A DNA stretch of 64,000 nt from Nostoc sp. NMS9. GTDB lineage: Bacteria > Cyanobacteriota > Cyanobacteriia > Cyanobacteriales > Nostocaceae. The stretch lies in contig NZ_JABXKL010000083.1 of assembly GCF_017114995.1 (NCBI RefSeq), forward strand, positions 124,001-188,000. The letters are read 5' to 3'. Shown here piece after piece: positions 27,824 through 36,366 of the stretch. Each line of letters begins with the position of its first letter. The first letter of the stretch is position 1. Below the pieces are notes generated by a model. It did not search any database. It was not told where the DNA came from and saw nothing but the letters and a program-made list of their open reading frames with translations. A program made the translations under genes and the position numbers.

Positions 27824-30800
27824 ATGAAAACATCTACCAAATTGCGAGCTAGCCTAGACTATTACTACCAGCAAATCAAAACAATCATCCTGACTCGCCA
27901 GAATCCGATTACTGGTTTACTACCTGCGAGTACAGCGATTACAGCCCACGGCGATTATACTGATGCCTGGGTGCGAGACAACGTTTACAGCATTTTGGCA
28001 GTTTGGGGTTTAGGACTTGCATACCGCAAGATTGACGACGATGAAGGACGCACCTATGAATTAGAACACAGTGTCATCAAACTGATGCGCGGGTTACTCT
28101 TTGCAATGATGCGACAGGCTCATAAAGTAGAGACATTTAAACATACTCAGTCGCTACTAGATGGACTGCACGCCAAATATAATACCGCGACCGGCGATAT
28201 TGTTGTTGGTGATGATCAATGGGGACATTTGCAACTTGATGCCACATCTATATTTTTATTGATATTGGCGCAAATGACCGCAGCCGGATTGCAAATAATC
28301 TATACGATTGATGAAGTGAATTTCGTCCAAAATTTAGTTTACTACATTGGACGAGCTTACCGCACACCAGATTACGGCATTTGGGAACGTGGGAATAAAA
28401 TTAATCGTGGTAGTGCTGAGTTAAACGCCAGTTCTGTAGGCATGGCAAAAGCTGCTTTAGAAGCTATCAATGGACTGGATTTGTTTGGTGTGCGTGGTAG
28501 TCAAGCATCGGTAATTCATGTGCTACCAGATGAAATCGCCCGTGCCCGGATTACGTTAGAATCCTTATTGCCGAGAGAATCTGGTTCCAAAGAAATTGAT
28601 GCGGCGCTGTTAAGTATTATTAGTTATCCTGCCTTTGCGGTAGAAGATTTGGAGTTACGCGATCGCACTTTAAACGATATTATCAATAAACTCGCTGGTA
28701 AATACGGCTGCAAACGCTTTCTGCGTGATGGACACCAAACCGTTTTAGAAGATAATCAACGTTTACACTACGAACCGTGGGAACTCAAGCAATTTGAGCA
28801 TATTGAATGCGAATGGCCGTTATTTTTCACTTATTTAGTTCTAGATGGATTATTTAGCGGCGAACAAGAACAAGTTAAAAAATACCAAAATCTTTTAGAA
28901 TCATTACTCATAGAACAAAATGGTTTGCGTTTATTGCCAGAACTTTATTATGTTCCAGCAGAAAACATAGAAGCAGAAAAGTTAACACCTCAAACGCAAC
29001 CACGTTTCCCCAATGAAAATATTCCCTTAGTATGGGCGCAGAGTTTATATTTTCTTAGTCAAATGTTGAGTGAAGGGGTACTGGCGGTTGGTGATATCGA
29101 CCCTTTGGGAAGACATTTATGTGTGGGCAAACAGCGCGAGGCATTGGTACAAATTGCCTTGTTAGCAGAAGATGAAGATTTACAAACGAAACTAGAAGTT
29201 CACGGAATTGAAGCACAAACGCCTACTCAAGTAGAACCGATTCAAGTGAGAAAAGCTGGAGAATTTTCCGCTATTTATACCCAAATCGGACGTAACGATA
29301 AACTTGGTTTAACTGGGCGCCCAGTGCGGCGGCTGCGGAGTTTAACAACATCTAGAATATTTCGGATTAGCGGTGAAACAATTGTATTTTTGCCTTCATT
29401 CTCAGACTCTCAACAGTTTTACTTAACTCTTGATTACCATTTTTTGCTGGATCAAATTAGAAGCGAACTAGCTTACATTCAAAAATATTGGAGCGATTTA
29501 GGTCGTCCTACCTTGACTTTAATGTTGACGCACACCATGTTAGAAGCAGGTTCGGAAGCATTACTGGAATTGATGCAAGAACTGAAAGATGGTGTTTGTA
29601 ACGGTGTACGGGTGAAATTAGGGCGGCTAAATCAGCTAATGCTAACAGCCGGAATCCAAAGAATTGATTTTCTACCCAATGCAGAATTTTCGCGATCGCC
29701 AGTAAAAAATGCTAGCCCACGTTGCTATTATTTAGCATATCATCCTGAGAAAAATTGGCGCCTAGGACATACCCAAGAATTTCAAATGGAGTGTGAAACT
29801 AACTTCGGATTATTACTTTCTTATTTGCGTTCATCAGAGAATATCTACGAGCAAATTGAGTTATTGCAAACTTTAACTCGCTTGCAGGGAATGAAATTTG
29901 ATACGGGGTATGGTGGCCCAGGATATCCTGTCACCGTAGGCGATTTACTAGATGAAGTTTACACCAAAGCTGGAGATTTAGGCATTTGGGCAGTAGTGCG
30001 TCGGGCTGCGGGGTTACGTCAAATGGTTGATATCAGCCTATCAGATGCAGTAACGAGTATTTTGGTAAGGGGCAAGCAAATTGCTGTGGGTAAAGCTTAC
30101 AGTGAAGCGTCCTTGATTAGCGTACCCATGTCCCACGATGAAATTGCCGATAAAATTAATCATTTTTGTCGTGAGGATATCCGCGATCGCGTCCTCACTC
30201 AAGAGATTTTAATCTATCTTGGCATCTTAATTCGCTCAGAACCCGGACTATTCCAAGGACTACTAACGCTGAGAGTCGGCTATCTCATCTTATTGATCAC
30301 CAGCGAACTAGCGCGGGAATTGCATCTCACTCAAGATGAAGCTTACGATCACTTAATGCAACTTTCACCCTTTGAAGTTAAAGTGCGCTTGCGTCAGGTA
30401 TTAACTGGATATACTGGCATGAGTAACCTGTTACGCCAGCAAGAATCACTGCACGTCAAACAAAAAGAAAGTGATATTGCTTGGGTGGTGCTACCAGGAA
30501 TCGCCGAAGGGATAGAAGTTCCGCCTGGAGGTTGGCGACGGTTTCGCCAAGCCGAGGGTGCGACAGGGCGCGTACCAAAAGAATTTTTTAAACAAGTTTG
30601 GCTATTAATGCAACATTGCAAGGGTTTAGTAATTGGCGATAAATTAGAGCGGCGCAATCGTTTAGATAGTGAGATAATGCTGTCGGAAATGACAGCCGGT
30701 GAAAGAAATTTTGCTCTGTTAGTTGAGCATTTGCTGAATAAAATCGAAGCTCCAGAATACCGACAAGTTAATATTGAAGCATTAATTGAATTAGGAGCGA

Positions 30801-31030
30801 TCGCAGCCAATAATCCTAAGCTGCAAATTGAAGAATATATCGTTTTGGATGTGTTAATTGGTCATGCAGTGCGATTGGCATGGTTAGAGAATCATAGTCA
30901 ACGCAGCGATCGCTATGATGAGGATAAGGCGAGTGCGTGGCGATCGTTTTACAATACTTCTCCTAGAGATTGCGCTAGTTATATTTTGAAGGCATTCAGG
31001 TTCTTGACGGAATTTGTGAAAGATTTTTAA
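27824..31030 (+). CDS. phosphorylase-kinase alpha/beta-like GH15-fold protein
   Basis: 1068 residues from ATG 27824, matching the duplicated gene start at 26412; a TTG at 27800 is less likely. The N-terminal (alpha/alpha)6 domain contains TRQNPITGLLPAS, DAWVRDNVYSILAVWGLGLA, VVGDDQWGHLQLDATS, NASSVGMAKAALEA, KYGCKRFLRDGHQT and IECEWPLFFTYLVLDG. These are close to remembered human PHKA1 text. Similarity continues to the C-terminus (FFKQVWLLMQHCKGLVI; MTAGERNFALLVEHLLNKI; APEYRQVNIEALIE), so it is a full-length relative and not a stray domain. Eukaryotic subunits regulate glycogen phosphorylase kinase; the bacterial role is unknown but probably concerns alpha-glucans. No kinase gamma subunit or glycogen gene is adjacent. 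Confidence 0.9.
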   Translation: MKTSTKLRASLDYYYQQIKTIILTRQNPITGLLPASTAITAHGDYTDAWVRDNVYSILAVWGLGLAYRKIDDDEGRTYELEHSVIKLMRGLLFAMMRQAHKVETFKHTQSLLDGLHAKYNTATGDIVVGDDQWGHLQLDATSIFLLILAQMTAAGLQIIYTIDEVNFVQNLVYYIGRAYRTPDYGIWERGNKINRGSAELNASSVGMAKAALEAINGLDLFGVRGSQASVIHVLPDEIARARITLESLLPRESGSKEIDAALLSIISYPAFAVEDLELRDRTLNDIINKLAGKYGCKRFLRDGHQTVLEDNQRLHYEPWELKQFEHIECEWPLFFTYLVLDGLFSGEQEQVKKYQNLLESLLIEQNGLRLLPELYYVPAENIEAEKLTPQTQPRFPNENIPLVWAQSLYFLSQMLSEGVLAVGDIDPLGRHLCVGKQREALVQIALLAEDEDLQTKLEVHGIEAQTPTQVEPIQVRKAGEFSAIYTQIGRNDKLGLTGRPVRRLRSLTTSRIFRISGETIVFLPSFSDSQQFYLTLDYHFLLDQIRSELAYIQKYWSDLGRPTLTLMLTHTMLEAGSEALLELMQELKDGVCNGVRVKLGRLNQLMLTAGIQRIDFLPNAEFSRSPVKNASPRCYYLAYHPEKNWRLGHTQEFQMECETNFGLLLSYLRSSENIYEQIELLQTLTRLQGMKFDTGYGGPGYPVTVGDLLDEVYTKAGDLGIWAVVRRAAGLRQMVDISLSDAVTSILVRGKQIAVGKAYSEASLISVPMSHDEIADKINHFCREDIRDRVLTQEILIYLGILIRSEPGLFQGLLTLRVGYLILLITSELARELHLTQDEAYDHLMQLSPFEVKVRLRQVLTGYTGMSNLLRQQESLHVKQKESDIAWVVLPGIAEGIEVPPGGWRRFRQAEGATGRVPKEFFKQVWLLMQHCKGLVIGDKLERRNRLDSEIMLSEMTAGERNFALLVEHLLNKIEAPEYRQVNIEALIELGAIAANNPKLQIEEYIVLDVLIGHAVRLAWLENHSQRSDRYDEDKASAWRSFYNTSPRDCASYILKAFRFLTEFVKDF

Positions 31031-31096: not shown

Positions 31097-31411
31097 CTAC
31101 TTAACAGAAACAGCATCAACATCAATAGTGCTTGCAGTGGAAGTAGAACCCTCTGGAGTATTAGGTACTTCAGTACCCACCTCACCCTTACGAGCTTTCC
31201 AGCCTTCAATCACTAGCCCAGACACCTCACTAACTAGCAGAGTCAAGAGGAAAACATCATCAATCTGTCCCACAACGGGTATAAAATCTGGGAGAACATC
31301 AAATGGGCTGACCAAATAGACCAACGTTCCTAAAATTACCCACCAACGGTATTTGGGGTTACGAAGTACATTGCGATACCAGGTGTAAAGTGATTGGATT
31401 GAAAATTTCAT
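31097..31411 (-). CDS. DUF1232 membrane protein
   Basis: 104 residues. The DUF1232 core PKYRWWVILGTLVYLVSPFDVLPDFIPVVGQIDD is clear, with one or two hydrophobic segments around the S-P-x-D-x-x-P-D motif. A Ser/Thr-rich tail follows. The family is widespread, small and of unknown function. It converges on the preceding large gene with 66 bases between stops. Confidence 0.85.
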   Translation of the reverse strand: MKFSIQSLYTWYRNVLRNPKYRWWVILGTLVYLVSPFDVLPDFIPVVGQIDDVFLLTLLVSEVSGLVIEGWKARKGEVGTEVPNTPEGSTSTASTIDVDAVSVK

Positions 31412-31740: not shown

Positions 31741-33462
31741 TTATAAATTGCTCGGTATAGTCTTAAACTTCTGTGCAGATCCCAAAGAATAATCTTCCAA
31801 TTTAAAATCAGCAAAAGGCTTCTTTTCTAACCTATTCCGTAGCGCCTCGTCAAGAATAACACCTGATGATTCTCTTTTAACACCAATAATTATTACACTT
31901 GTCTGATATGTAGTTAAATCCTGATTTGCCTGACAATCACTCCGTTGGAATTGACCCAAATTCAATAAGTGATAACTTTTGACACTTGGTGTATTAATAA
32001 ATAATTTTTGAACCAAAAGTTGTATTTGTTTAGAACGTTCTAAAGCTAGACGTTCTTGAACTGATCTATTACCTTTACAAGAAGCTGTGCCGACAGAGAT
32101 AATCTCATTGGGAGCTTCCATTATCTTCTCTATACCTTCTTGTTCTAAGTTCAACTTCAAAAGGTCAACACTAATAATTTCATCATTGTATTTAATTTGA
32201 AAATTGCTACCTAAAAGCCATTTATATTTTAGTGATAAAACCGTTATATTAAACTCAGCTATCCTTCCCTGGCTATCCCTACCTTCTTGATAAGAAAAGT
32301 AATCGATGTTACCTTTTTTTTCTGGATATTGTCTGTAATAAGATGTTTCAGAAAAATCTGATTTTCGCGTTGCTAAAGCCACGATACTAAGTAATCCTAA
32401 TACCACTAATAGAACTGCAAAAAATGCCAATAGCGGCACTTTTTCCAGCTGCTTATTTGGAGGTAATGAGTTGTGATTAATATCTACAGGTAAATGTTCA
32501 AGGTTAGAAGATTCTAGTATATTACTATTTGTCAGAGTAGTGTCTGTTAATTGAGTTTCGATTTCTTCTAGGGAATACAAAATTTCTTGAGTACTGGCAG
32601 GACGTTTTTCTATATCTGACGCTGTTAGCCAATCAATTAAATTCAATAGTAAGGGTGAAATCTGGGTAGCATGATTTTGCCAGTGCAACAAATTTTGCTG
32701 GACATCATACATCTCCAAAGGATGATATCCTGTCAGCAAAAATACAAAAGTGCGTCCCAAAGCAAAGAAATCTGACTGCGGTACTGCTTGACCATTCATT
32801 TGTTCTGGGGCGCTGTAGCCAGATGACATAAGTGCTGTCATCTTGTCGCCGTTGCTTAGTTGGTCTTGGTAGGTTTTATTAATTTCACTGGCGGTGCCAT
32901 AATCAATTAGTACTAGATTCCCCCAATCCTTCTCAAAGGGGGATCTAATCATGATATTAGATGGCTTAATATCTCGATGTAAATACTGTTTGCTATGTAC
33001 TACATCTAAAATTTCTATCAACTGTCTTAACCAGTCTATGGCTTGTTCTTGGGATATGGGGCTATTTTGCTGCTGTAGCCACTGTTCTAAGTTGTAGCCA
33101 TCGATTTTTTCCATTGCAATGCAATGCAACACTAAACCATTTCGGGTTTGATACTGGAAGTAACTATCTTCTTTGGGAATTCCGGGATGCTTGAATTGTC
33201 CCAACACGGTTACTTCTTGCTGAAATAGTTCTACTGCTTTGGCGTCGCCTGATAAATCCTCTTTGAGTATCTTGAGAATTTTGGGGGTATCTTGCTCGTA
33301 TGCCTCATAAACTTTACTAAAACCTGTTTTGTCACTCATCAGGCACGTCACCCGATAACGCCCTAGCAATTCTAGATGGGAACCACAACTTTGACAAAAG
33401 CGGTTTTGCTGATTATTTGGGTGATTTGGTTTAGGGCAAACAGGGTTGATACAAAGGCTCAT
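31741..33462 (-). CDS. membrane Ser/Thr protein kinase with zinc ribbon
   Basis: 573 residues from the Met at 33462. The N-terminal zinc ribbon has Cys4, Cys9, Cys23 and Cys26. The Hanks-type kinase domain (about 34-305) has the catalytic loop HRDIKPSNIM (HRD 162-164) and DYG (from 187) in place of DFG. A single membrane helix follows at about 342-363. The outer domain carries an OmpA-like piece (GTASCKGNRSVQERLALERS), suggesting envelope sensing. This layout is common among cyanobacterial Pkn kinases. The frame runs 24 codons further upstream through GGGAGTG repeats, and these are excluded. Confidence 0.88.
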   Translation of the reverse strand: MSLCINPVCPKPNHPNNQQNRFCQSCGSHLELLGRYRVTCLMSDKTGFSKVYEAYEQDTPKILKILKEDLSGDAKAVELFQQEVTVLGQFKHPGIPKEDSYFQYQTRNGLVLHCIAMEKIDGYNLEQWLQQQNSPISQEQAIDWLRQLIEILDVVHSKQYLHRDIKPSNIMIRSPFEKDWGNLVLIDYGTASEINKTYQDQLSNGDKMTALMSSGYSAPEQMNGQAVPQSDFFALGRTFVFLLTGYHPLEMYDVQQNLLHWQNHATQISPLLLNLIDWLTASDIEKRPASTQEILYSLEEIETQLTDTTLTNSNILESSNLEHLPVDINHNSLPPNKQLEKVPLLAFFAVLLVVLGLLSIVALATRKSDFSETSYYRQYPEKKGNIDYFSYQEGRDSQGRIAEFNITVLSLKYKWLLGSNFQIKYNDEIISVDLLKLNLEQEGIEKIMEAPNEIISVGTASCKGNRSVQERLALERSKQIQLLVQKLFINTPSVKSYHLLNLGQFQRSDCQANQDLTTYQTSVIIIGVKRESSGVILDEALRNRLEKKPFADFKLEDYSLGSAQKFKTIPSNL

Positions 33463-33715
33463 GACAGGAGAGTGGGGAGTGGGGAGTGGGGAGTGGGGAG
33501 GAGGGGAGCAGGGAGCAGGGAGCAGGAGAGACAAGGGGACAAGGGGGACAAGGGGGAATTATTGAACAAGTCTCTCCATTGTCTCCCCCCTCTTCCTTGT
33601 CTACCTTGTCTCTTCTCCATTCCCAATGCCCAATCCCCTATGCCCCATGCCCAATCCCCCTAAACATCGCTTCTATTAATTCTTCTGTTGCTGTATGACT
33701 AATCCCGTCTAATAA
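33463..33715. repeat. heptamer repeat block upstream of the kinase gene
   Basis: GGGAGTG tandem units (about 33470-33500), then GGGAGCA and GGGGACAA units (to about 33556) and a CCCAATG/CCCATG block (33622-33660). It contains no gene. Confidence 0.85.
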
Positions 33716-34564: not shown

Positions 34565-34833
34565 CATTGCACATCCAGGCTTAGATAGTTTTGCGTTTAT
34601 ATGGTACTGCGAAAGAAGATGGAGAGCAGAGGAGCAGGGGAGACAAGGGGGACAAGGAGGAATTATTGAAAATCTCTCCTTTGTCTCTTCTCCATGCCCA
34701 ATGCCCAATGCCCAATTCAATTGTTACCATTTACCACTTTATGACTCTGAGGATTGTACCAATTGACACGAAACAATGAGGCTAATGAATGCCAAGATCA
34801 AGAAAAGGATGCCCCAAGGATATTAAAAGTACT

Positions 34834-36366
34834 ATGCCAGAATTACACCAATCAATTGCCCAGCATTATCACGAACGGACTAAATACAACCCTGAGACTC
34901 TCGCTTCCAAAAGTCAGCGGTTAGACTGGACTAAACAGCCAGTGCCCTTCAAAGAGTACAAAATTGGCTCTACTTTTGATCTCAAACCCTATATCCAAGA
35001 AAAAGCAGAGGCTTATGCTAATAACCCAGATGCTCAATGGTGGCAAAGACTTTCACGGCTATTGTTTCGCAGTTATGGATTGACGGCGAAAATGCCTTCT
35101 ATGGGTAGTGCAGTGTATTTACGTGCTGCTCCCAGTGCAGGCGGACTATACCCTGCCGAGGTGTATGTGGTTTCCCGTGGTACGTCGTTATTGCCGCCTG
35201 GTCTATATAACTACCAGTGTCGAACTCATTCTCTCATGCATTATTGGGAAAGTGATGTTTGGCAAACTCTCCAAGCAGCTTGTTTCTGGCATCCTTCTTT
35301 AGAAAATACCCAATTAGCAATTATTGTGACTGCGGTTTTCTACCGTTCTGCGTGGCGCTATGAAGATCGGGCTTACCGTCGGATTTTTCTGGATACGGGA
35401 CATCTGTTGGGTAATATCGAGTTAGCTGGTGCGATTACTGATTATCGCCCCCATTTAATCGGCGGCTTTGTGGATGAATCGGTCAACGATCTGCTTTATG
35501 TCGATCCGCAACAAGAAGGTGCGATCGCTGTCTTACCTCTGGCAGACTTGTTAGATGTTAATCAAAATTTACCATTGGGATGTACTGCTTTACCTTCCGC
35601 TACTGAAACCAGTTATCCTCAAATCCCCGATGGCGAGCTACTAACATATTTCCATCGACACACCCAGATACAATCAAGTGTAACTGGTAATTTTAATCTA
35701 CCAACTATTAAACAAGAAAAATCTTTGGAGGATAAATACAATTTTCCTTTCTGTTTAAAAATTCCCACCACCACCGCACCTATAAACTGGGGACAAAAAC
35801 TATCAGAACTGGAAAGCACTATGTATAAGCGACGCTCTACCCGCGCTTACAATGGTGATGATTTAGGCTTCGATGAATTGAAAAGTTTACTCGATTTCAC
35901 TTACCAACCGCAAAATTACATCGACCAAAGCTTAGATATTTCTCCAGACTACTTCGATCTAAATTTAATCGAAACATTCATTGCTGTTTGCGGAGTCAAA
36001 GGACTGGAAGCGGGTTGTTACTATTACGCGCCCAAAGCCCAAGAATTACGCCAAATTCGGTTTAAAAACTTTCGGCGAGAGTTACATTTTCTCTGTTTAG
36101 GACAAGAATTAGGACGGGATGCAGCAGCAGTGTTATTTCATACAGCCGACTTGAAAGCTGCGATCGCACAATATGGCGATCGCGTTTACCGTTACTTGCA
36201 CATGGATGCCGGTCATTTGGGACAACGCCTCAATTTAGCTGCAATGCACCTGAATGTAGGCGTCAGTGGTATCGGTGGATTCTTTGACGATCAAGTAAAT
36301 GAAGTTTTGGGTATTCCTGCTGATGAAGCTGTTTTATATATCACTACATTGGGACACCCAAGATAA
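34834..36366 (+). CDS. SagB/ThcOx-type FMN oxidoreductase, tandem nitroreductase domains
   Basis: 510 residues from ATG 34834 (MPELHQSIAQHYHERTKYNP). The first nitroreductase-like domain has RAAPSAGGLYPAEVYVVSRG and DTGHLLGNIELAG, the pattern of SagB dehydrogenases. A second copy begins MYKRRSTRAYNGD and ends HMDAGHLGQRLNLAAMHLNV plus GFFDDQVNEVLGIP. SagB enzymes oxidise azolines in modified peptides, but no cyclodehydratase or precursor gene is near, so this may be a stand-alone relative. Divergent from the hydrolase. An upstream ATG at 34789 is possible but less family-like. Confidence 0.87.
   Translation: MPELHQSIAQHYHERTKYNPETLASKSQRLDWTKQPVPFKEYKIGSTFDLKPYIQEKAEAYANNPDAQWWQRLSRLLFRSYGLTAKMPSMGSAVYLRAAPSAGGLYPAEVYVVSRGTSLLPPGLYNYQCRTHSLMHYWESDVWQTLQAACFWHPSLENTQLAIIVTAVFYRSAWRYEDRAYRRIFLDTGHLLGNIELAGAITDYRPHLIGGFVDESVNDLLYVDPQQEGAIAVLPLADLLDVNQNLPLGCTALPSATETSYPQIPDGELLTYFHRHTQIQSSVTGNFNLPTIKQEKSLEDKYNFPFCLKIPTTTAPINWGQKLSELESTMYKRRSTRAYNGDDLGFDELKSLLDFTYQPQNYIDQSLDISPDYFDLNLIETFIAVCGVKGLEAGCYYYAPKAQELRQIRFKNFRRELHFLCLGQELGRDAAAVLFHTADLKAAIAQYGDRVYRYLHMDAGHLGQRLNLAAMHLNVGVSGIGGFFDDQVNEVLGIPADEAVLYITTLGHPR

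Follow-up and report, generated by a model that had tools for sequence, protein, structure and literature searches.

The locus and its protein

The stretch of DNA that we analyzed (the window) is 64,000 nucleotides long and comes from Nostoc sp. NMS9. It contains a gene whose product resembles alpha and beta, the two large regulatory subunits of phosphorylase kinase (PhK), a classic regulated kinase that turns on the breakdown of glycogen in animals. The gene, its domains and its neighbors are as follows.

27824..31030, plus strand: PhK alpha/beta-like protein, full length, 1068 aa (ORF; Pfam GH15 and KPBB_C; PDB 8jfk)
27824..29113, plus strand: D1, a GH15 glucoamylase-like domain, residues 1-430; the boundary is approximate and was set by us
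30314..31018, plus strand: KPBB_C, the PhK C-terminal region, residues 831-1065 (Pfam)
31097..31411, minus strand: DUF1232 protein (PF06803), a convergent neighbor, probably functionally unrelated
31741-33534, minus strand: Ser/Thr protein kinase bearing a 4-Cys prefix domain; its gene is separated from the PhK-like gene by 0.7 kb on the downstream side
34789-36366, plus strand: SagB-family peptide dehydrogenase-like protein, 525 aa, matched in two stretches

In the ORF list of the window, the PhK-like gene starts at the ATG at 27824 and its stop codon ends at 31030; an alternative start, a TTG lying 24 bases upstream, would give a protein of 1076 aa. Pfam analysis of the 1068-aa protein identified Glyco_hydro_15 (PF00723) at residues 10-819 (2.7e-106; 356.5 bits, cut-off 22) and KPBB_C (PF19292) at residues 831-1065 (8.9e-107; 356.1 bits, cut-off 27). 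KPBB_C is the phosphorylase b kinase C-terminal domain, and it follows the GH15-like D1 in one and the same chain. When the protein was searched against PDB, only two distinct sequences were matched at E<=1, human PhK alpha (E = 7e-254) and human PhK beta (E = 1e-215), both in 8jfk. The match to alpha consists of three co-linear stretches (8-618, 657-864 and 901-994) and that to beta of two (9-860 and 904-1059). The first-pass annotation had described a full-length bacterial relative of PhK alpha/beta, a description that an alignment limited to the first ~450 residues would have contradicted; the matches run to residue 994 with alpha and to 1059 with beta, and the ORF is, beyond reasonable doubt, homologous to both subunits along its whole length.

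We also calculated regional identities from the PhK fragments printed by the search tools, using a single human alpha and a single human beta sequence. Identity to alpha and beta was 63% and 51% at residues 1-430, 33% and 38% at residues 431-620, and 30% and 32% at residues 621-830. At residues 831-1068 it was 39% and 36%, with a counterpart at only 122 and 174 of the 238 positions, respectively. A structure model of the protein (mean pLDDT 64.5, pTM 0.49, residues 170-275 below 50) was used for fold matching only, its middling quality placing the pocket geometry beyond its reach. In VIA-align the PhK chains came first, followed by the GH15-fold glycosidases 5z3a-e, 7c24 and 7c25. The full-length PhK matches had rmsd values of 18-27 A, so that the predicted fold agrees with the PhK chains only at the level of domains.

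Two sets of residues in D1

To the human fragments we aligned 117 cyanobacterial sequences (114 distinct), namely the window protein and those of 116 of 119 loci. The three remaining loci were left out for want of an ORF of 900 aa bearing the motif used for selection, the short ones being L074, L116 and L120. Six D1 residues correspond to positions of known role in PhK.

28352..28363, plus strand: R177, Y179 and R180, counterparts of the ADP-phosphate ligands Arg211, Tyr213 and Arg214 of beta; each in 117/117
28385..28387, plus strand: E188, counterpart of the catalytic Glu185 of alpha; Glu in 117/117, in human alpha and in human beta
28541..28543, plus strand: R240, counterpart of the ADP-phosphate ligand Arg274 of beta; Arg in 116/117, His in L085
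28940..28942, plus strand: E373, counterpart of the catalytic Glu371 of alpha; Glu in 117/117 and in human alpha, Lys in human beta

L085 is the sole sequence of the 117 without R240; it reads HCR at this point, and human alpha reads HCQ. Because the sequences were picked by the motif WERG.K, which includes E188, the count for E188 taken alone is circular; beside it, a WERG.K-bearing ORF of more than 500 aa is present in 119/119 loci. All six positions were also invariant in 23/23 sequences comprising the window protein and 22 of 39 BLAST matches.

In a published cryo-EM study of human PhK (PMC10978961), Glu185 and Glu371 of alpha are named as the catalytic pair, and some catalytic residues are described as missing from beta. 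Maltose, isomaltose and glycogen were tried there as substrates, with no detectable glucoamylase activity for either the holoenzyme or the alpha-gamma-delta complex, and the authors call the reason for this, given the intact site of alpha, an open question. An intact site is thus no proof of catalysis, since human alpha has the same intact-looking site. Nevertheless, both glutamates, which had been singled out earlier for checking, are intact in the cyanobacterial protein, and direct action on alpha-glucans is therefore plausible.

The second set of residues concerns nucleotide binding. According to the same study (PMC10978961), the pocket of human beta that lies where D1, D2 and D4 meet has Arg211, Tyr213, Arg214 and Arg274 around the diphosphate of ADP, and ADP slightly shifts D2-D5 relative to D1. 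All four beta-type ligand positions are matched in the cyanobacterial chain, in what is a predicted pocket compared by its D1 residues. The first-pass annotation had missed this pocket, as it had the glycosyltransferase neighbor described below. In these columns, human beta has R, Y, R and R and human alpha has A, Y, K and H.

To see these positions against D1 as a whole, we counted the positions conserved at >=98% in the 117 sequences, which amounted to 163 of the 430. Both human chains keep 103 of them, alpha alone keeps 37, beta alone keeps 11 and neither keeps 12. The set kept by alpha alone includes R51, D130, W133, D139 and E373, and that kept by beta alone consists of R177, R180, R240, R242, T37, G43, E252, A261, I266, K297 and Q392. 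Three of the four Arg/Tyr residues in the latter set are ADP ligands (hypergeometric P = 0.0076, calculated post hoc). We infer, as the plain reading of this alignment, that the cyanobacterial chain carries both sites, of which the human subunits each kept one. The pocket arginines could also be structural, given how strongly D1 is conserved.

This last point leads to a second explanation, that the protein is a plain GH15 enzyme hydrolyzing an intracellular alpha-glucoside, with an arginine cluster that is structural or substrate-binding and no nucleotide control. The GH15 site is intact in all sequences examined, and GH15-fold glycosidases do appear behind the PhK chains in the fold matches. 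However, the arginines in question fall on positions that were mapped in beta as ADP ligands. Moreover, the cluster is kept in beta, which has lost one catalytic glutamate, and lost in alpha, which has both, the opposite of what would be expected of a substrate site. We regard this explanation as unlikely.

PhK-specific features and gene neighborhood

Several features characteristic of PhK are missing from the cyanobacterial proteins. With regard to the CaaX box, none of the 117 sequences has Cys at position -4, although at least one of them (L124) is cut by a contig end. At the residues that anchor the gamma subunit, where the alignment is variable, no sequence has Tyr in the column of alpha Tyr593, and the column of alpha Lys588 holds E in 105 sequences, R in one and K in none. 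In addition, the HMMER alignment gives no counterpart to the alpha stretches 621-758 and 967-1050. Given these absences, the cyanobacterial protein is, on present evidence, a member of the alpha/beta family and not a PhK subunit.

The gene neighborhood was examined by clustering the neighbors of 62 listed loci, 60 of which had a usable home gene, and by viewing the 18 largest clusters. Among these, no gene for a Ser/Thr kinase, phosphorylase, glycogen enzyme or calmodulin stands out as recurring beside the PhK-like gene. One cluster of 12 loci resembles sensor histidine kinases by eye, on varying sides of the gene. The DUF1232 gene follows the PhK-like gene on the opposite strand in 11 loci; it recurs within f1, the family to which the window belongs, and we rejected it as a functional partner. 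The genes for the Ser/Thr kinase, an alpha/beta hydrolase and the SagB-family protein, all downstream in the window, were likewise rejected, as among 39 loci they occupy the matching place only in L042, a locus of the same genus. The earlier statement that neither a kinase gamma gene nor a calmodulin gene is near needs amendment in that a Ser/Thr kinase gene does lie on the minus strand at 31741-33534. It is found at the matching place in only 1/5 same-genus loci, and it is therefore no conserved partner.

These observations bear on a third explanation, in which the protein would have a role like that of PhK, as a non-catalytic glucan-binding scaffold that controls either glycogen phosphorylase or a Ser/Thr kinase in the bacterial cell. 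Membership of the PhK alpha/beta family and the kinase gene 0.7 kb away in the window genome speak for it. Against it stand the poor conservation of that gene, the lack in all 117 sequences of the anchor Tyr and Lys (in a variable part of the alignment) and of the cysteine at position -4, and the invariant catalytic residues, which would be unexpected in a pure scaffold. We consider it improbable. For the regulation of glycogen phosphorylase suggested in the first-pass annotation we found no sign, there being no Ser/Thr kinase, phosphorylase or calmodulin gene that stands out as a recurring neighbor in the 18 largest clusters, and neither gamma-anchor residues nor CaaX.

A neighbor that does recur across families is a WecG/TagA/CpsF-family glycosyltransferase gene, which lies upstream of and divergent from the PhK-like gene in 27 of the 119 loci. 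Loci with this arrangement include L031, L032, L038 and L055, and the gene of L055 was assigned to PF03808 by Pfam. When positions were compared by eye in the 59 genomes outside the Nostocaceae (f1), a WecG-type gene adjoined the PhK-like gene divergently in 39, comprising 31/31 genomes of family f25, 6/7 of f6, one of f21 and one of f4; the other 20 have no such pair. In all 31 f25 genomes the adjoining gene is the only one of the WecG family. The window genome has its orthologue on another contig, with 66% identity to the L055 gene as compared with 35% for one paralogue. This link is common to distant families and is unlikely to be due to chance. Nevertheless, a cell-envelope or exopolysaccharide role together with this glycosyltransferase, for which the pairing would argue, seems doubtful to us, because the window's orthologue lies elsewhere, the pair is missing from 20/59 of the compared genomes, the 18 largest clusters showed no further envelope gene as a conspicuous neighbor, and a shared promoter or plain synteny can also yield divergent pairs.

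With regard to mobility and defence, searches of phages gave no match to the protein, those of viral contigs no relative, those of plasmids no DNA match to the gene and PADLOC no match. We rejected a mobile element; the only protein matches in plasmids were two E. coli records, which align to 25% of the query at ~25% identity, and the protein encoded by one of them is barely over the GH15 cut-off (23.7 versus 22 bits).

Descent, proposed function and comparison with known systems

The gene is widespread in cyanobacteria. KPBB_C was over the cut-off in 101 of the 386 Cyanobacteriota genomes drawn, one further genome having a hit below the threshold. Of 14 control genomes, that of Synechococcus elongatus alone gave a match. 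Among the listed genomes of f1 it was found in 42/43, the window's own included. A search with a query alignment headed by human alpha 8-620 confirmed at least 573 relatives among 84,980 species, represented by one genome each, and the best 80 of these all carry cyanobacterial names. The nearest named relative among the matches listed is L102 from Nostoc favosum, 97.8% identical to the window protein. In genome G197 the gene is present twice, as L023 and L024, whose products share 73% and 68% identity with that protein and both retain the catalytic and ADP residues.

Next, we compared the human subunits with 51 cyanobacterial sequences. Over the fragments, human alpha is 34-45% and human beta 30-40% identical to them, and alpha and beta are 37% identical to each other. 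By BLAST score, 45 of the 51 are better matches to human alpha than human beta is, and 44 are better matches to human beta than human alpha is; six f25 sequences fail both comparisons and L061 fails that with beta. This pattern fits a cyanobacterial protein near the state that preceded the duplication into alpha and beta. A family tree of 53 rows, unrooted and built by a quick method, recovered f25 and a clade of 18 rows holding the window's family (both 100), as expected from mostly vertical descent. It joined the two human rows, whose branches are very long (2.05 and 4.2); by the program's own warning, their joining and placement may be false. The earlier suggestion of an "ancestral or transferred" form thus agrees with the scores; with an unrooted tree and such long branches, the data do not discriminate between a transfer in either direction between cyanobacteria and eukaryotes and an older shared origin.

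Beside the demonstrated full-length homology and conservation of both residue sets, we propose that the protein is an adenylate-gated GH15-type glucan protein, probably cytosolic, which works as a single chain and is close to the PhK alpha/beta form before duplication; we give this a probability of about 0.5. The gene would encode a single-chain cyanobacterial member of the family, and inspection by eye reveals no obvious signal peptide. With its D1 active site intact, the protein would probably be a GH15-fold hydrolase (or transferase) of alpha-glucans or oligosaccharides. Its activity may be set by an adenine nucleotide in the D1/D2/D4 pocket, either ADP or ADP-glucose, the latter being a candidate because cyanobacterial glycogen synthesis uses ADP-glucose. 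By analogy with human beta, a motion of D2-D5 could open or close the GH15 site of the same chain. Homo-oligomers would probably form via the surfaces common to alpha and beta. In eukaryotes, duplication of such a gene may have been followed by a division of the sites: alpha would have retained the glycosidase site but not the ADP ligands, beta the ADP ligands but not the glycosidase site, and the two would have turned into scaffolds for the kinase gamma subunit. A bolder version, which we put forward tentatively, is that the protein is the living undivided ancestor of PhK alpha/beta, a glucan enzyme gated by ADP or ADP-glucose, and that its gene passed from cyanobacteria to eukaryotes, where it was duplicated, the two sites were divided between alpha and beta, and the kinase was added.

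The homology itself is not new, because bacterial members of the family are already known to databases, as the Pfam family name and the use of KEGG K07190 on bacterial data indicate. The K07190 entry (phosphorylase kinase alpha/beta) is listed among functions in two papers on gut and oral microbiome data, and thus other bacteria may carry a gene of this family. In the open-access literature searched, no title or abstract start mentioned a cyanobacterial PhK alpha/beta homologue, and we did not find there the joint presence of the two sites, the missing PhK-specific features or the glycosyltransferase link. A 2003 paper by Pallen, to judge from citations of it, is said to treat glucoamylase-like domains. 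The term "glycogen phosphorylase kinase" in the abstract of a marine Synechococcus proteomics study was set aside, as the corresponding part of its results text has glgP at that place. With one bacterial chain that has both sites, two questions could be put to the test without recourse to the 1.3-MDa complex, namely why alpha keeps its intact glucoamylase site and how the ADP site of beta arose. The protein would also be an unrecognised control point of cyanobacterial carbon storage, provided that its nucleotide is ADP or ADP-glucose.

Among known systems, GH15 glucoamylases and glycosidases (5z3a-e and Aspergillus glucoamylase) resemble the cyanobacterial protein in the D1 fold, the GH15 Pfam model and the two catalytic glutamates, but they are not known to have a KPBB_C region. 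The GH15 protein of L153 has none either by Pfam, and when a cyanobacterial D1 profile was run against the ORFs of nine GH15 or GH15-like loci, L153 alone passed the inclusion threshold, and weakly, the others yielding no alignment fit for rooting the tree. The window genome itself holds a second, generic GH15 protein (L002; G000:C68), whose relatives are scarce in the phylum, with matches in 9/98 genomes, its own included and several of them weak. PhK beta (PHKB) is similar in length (1093 versus 1068 aa) and has all four ADP-phosphate ligands, and residues 431-620 of the cyanobacterial protein are slightly nearer to it than to alpha. It differs in the Lys that replaces one catalytic Glu, in the changed R51, W133 and D139, and in its farnesylated CaaX cysteine. 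PhK alpha (PHKA; PDB 8jfk and 8z5m) is co-linear with the cyanobacterial protein in all regions, most closely in D1 as the 63% identity indicates, and shares both catalytic glutamates together with R51, D52, W133 and D139. However, human alpha has the stretches 621-758 and 967-1050, the gamma-anchor Tyr and Lys and the CaaX box, none of which the cyanobacterial protein has, and it is without three of the four ADP ligands that the cyanobacterial protein possesses.
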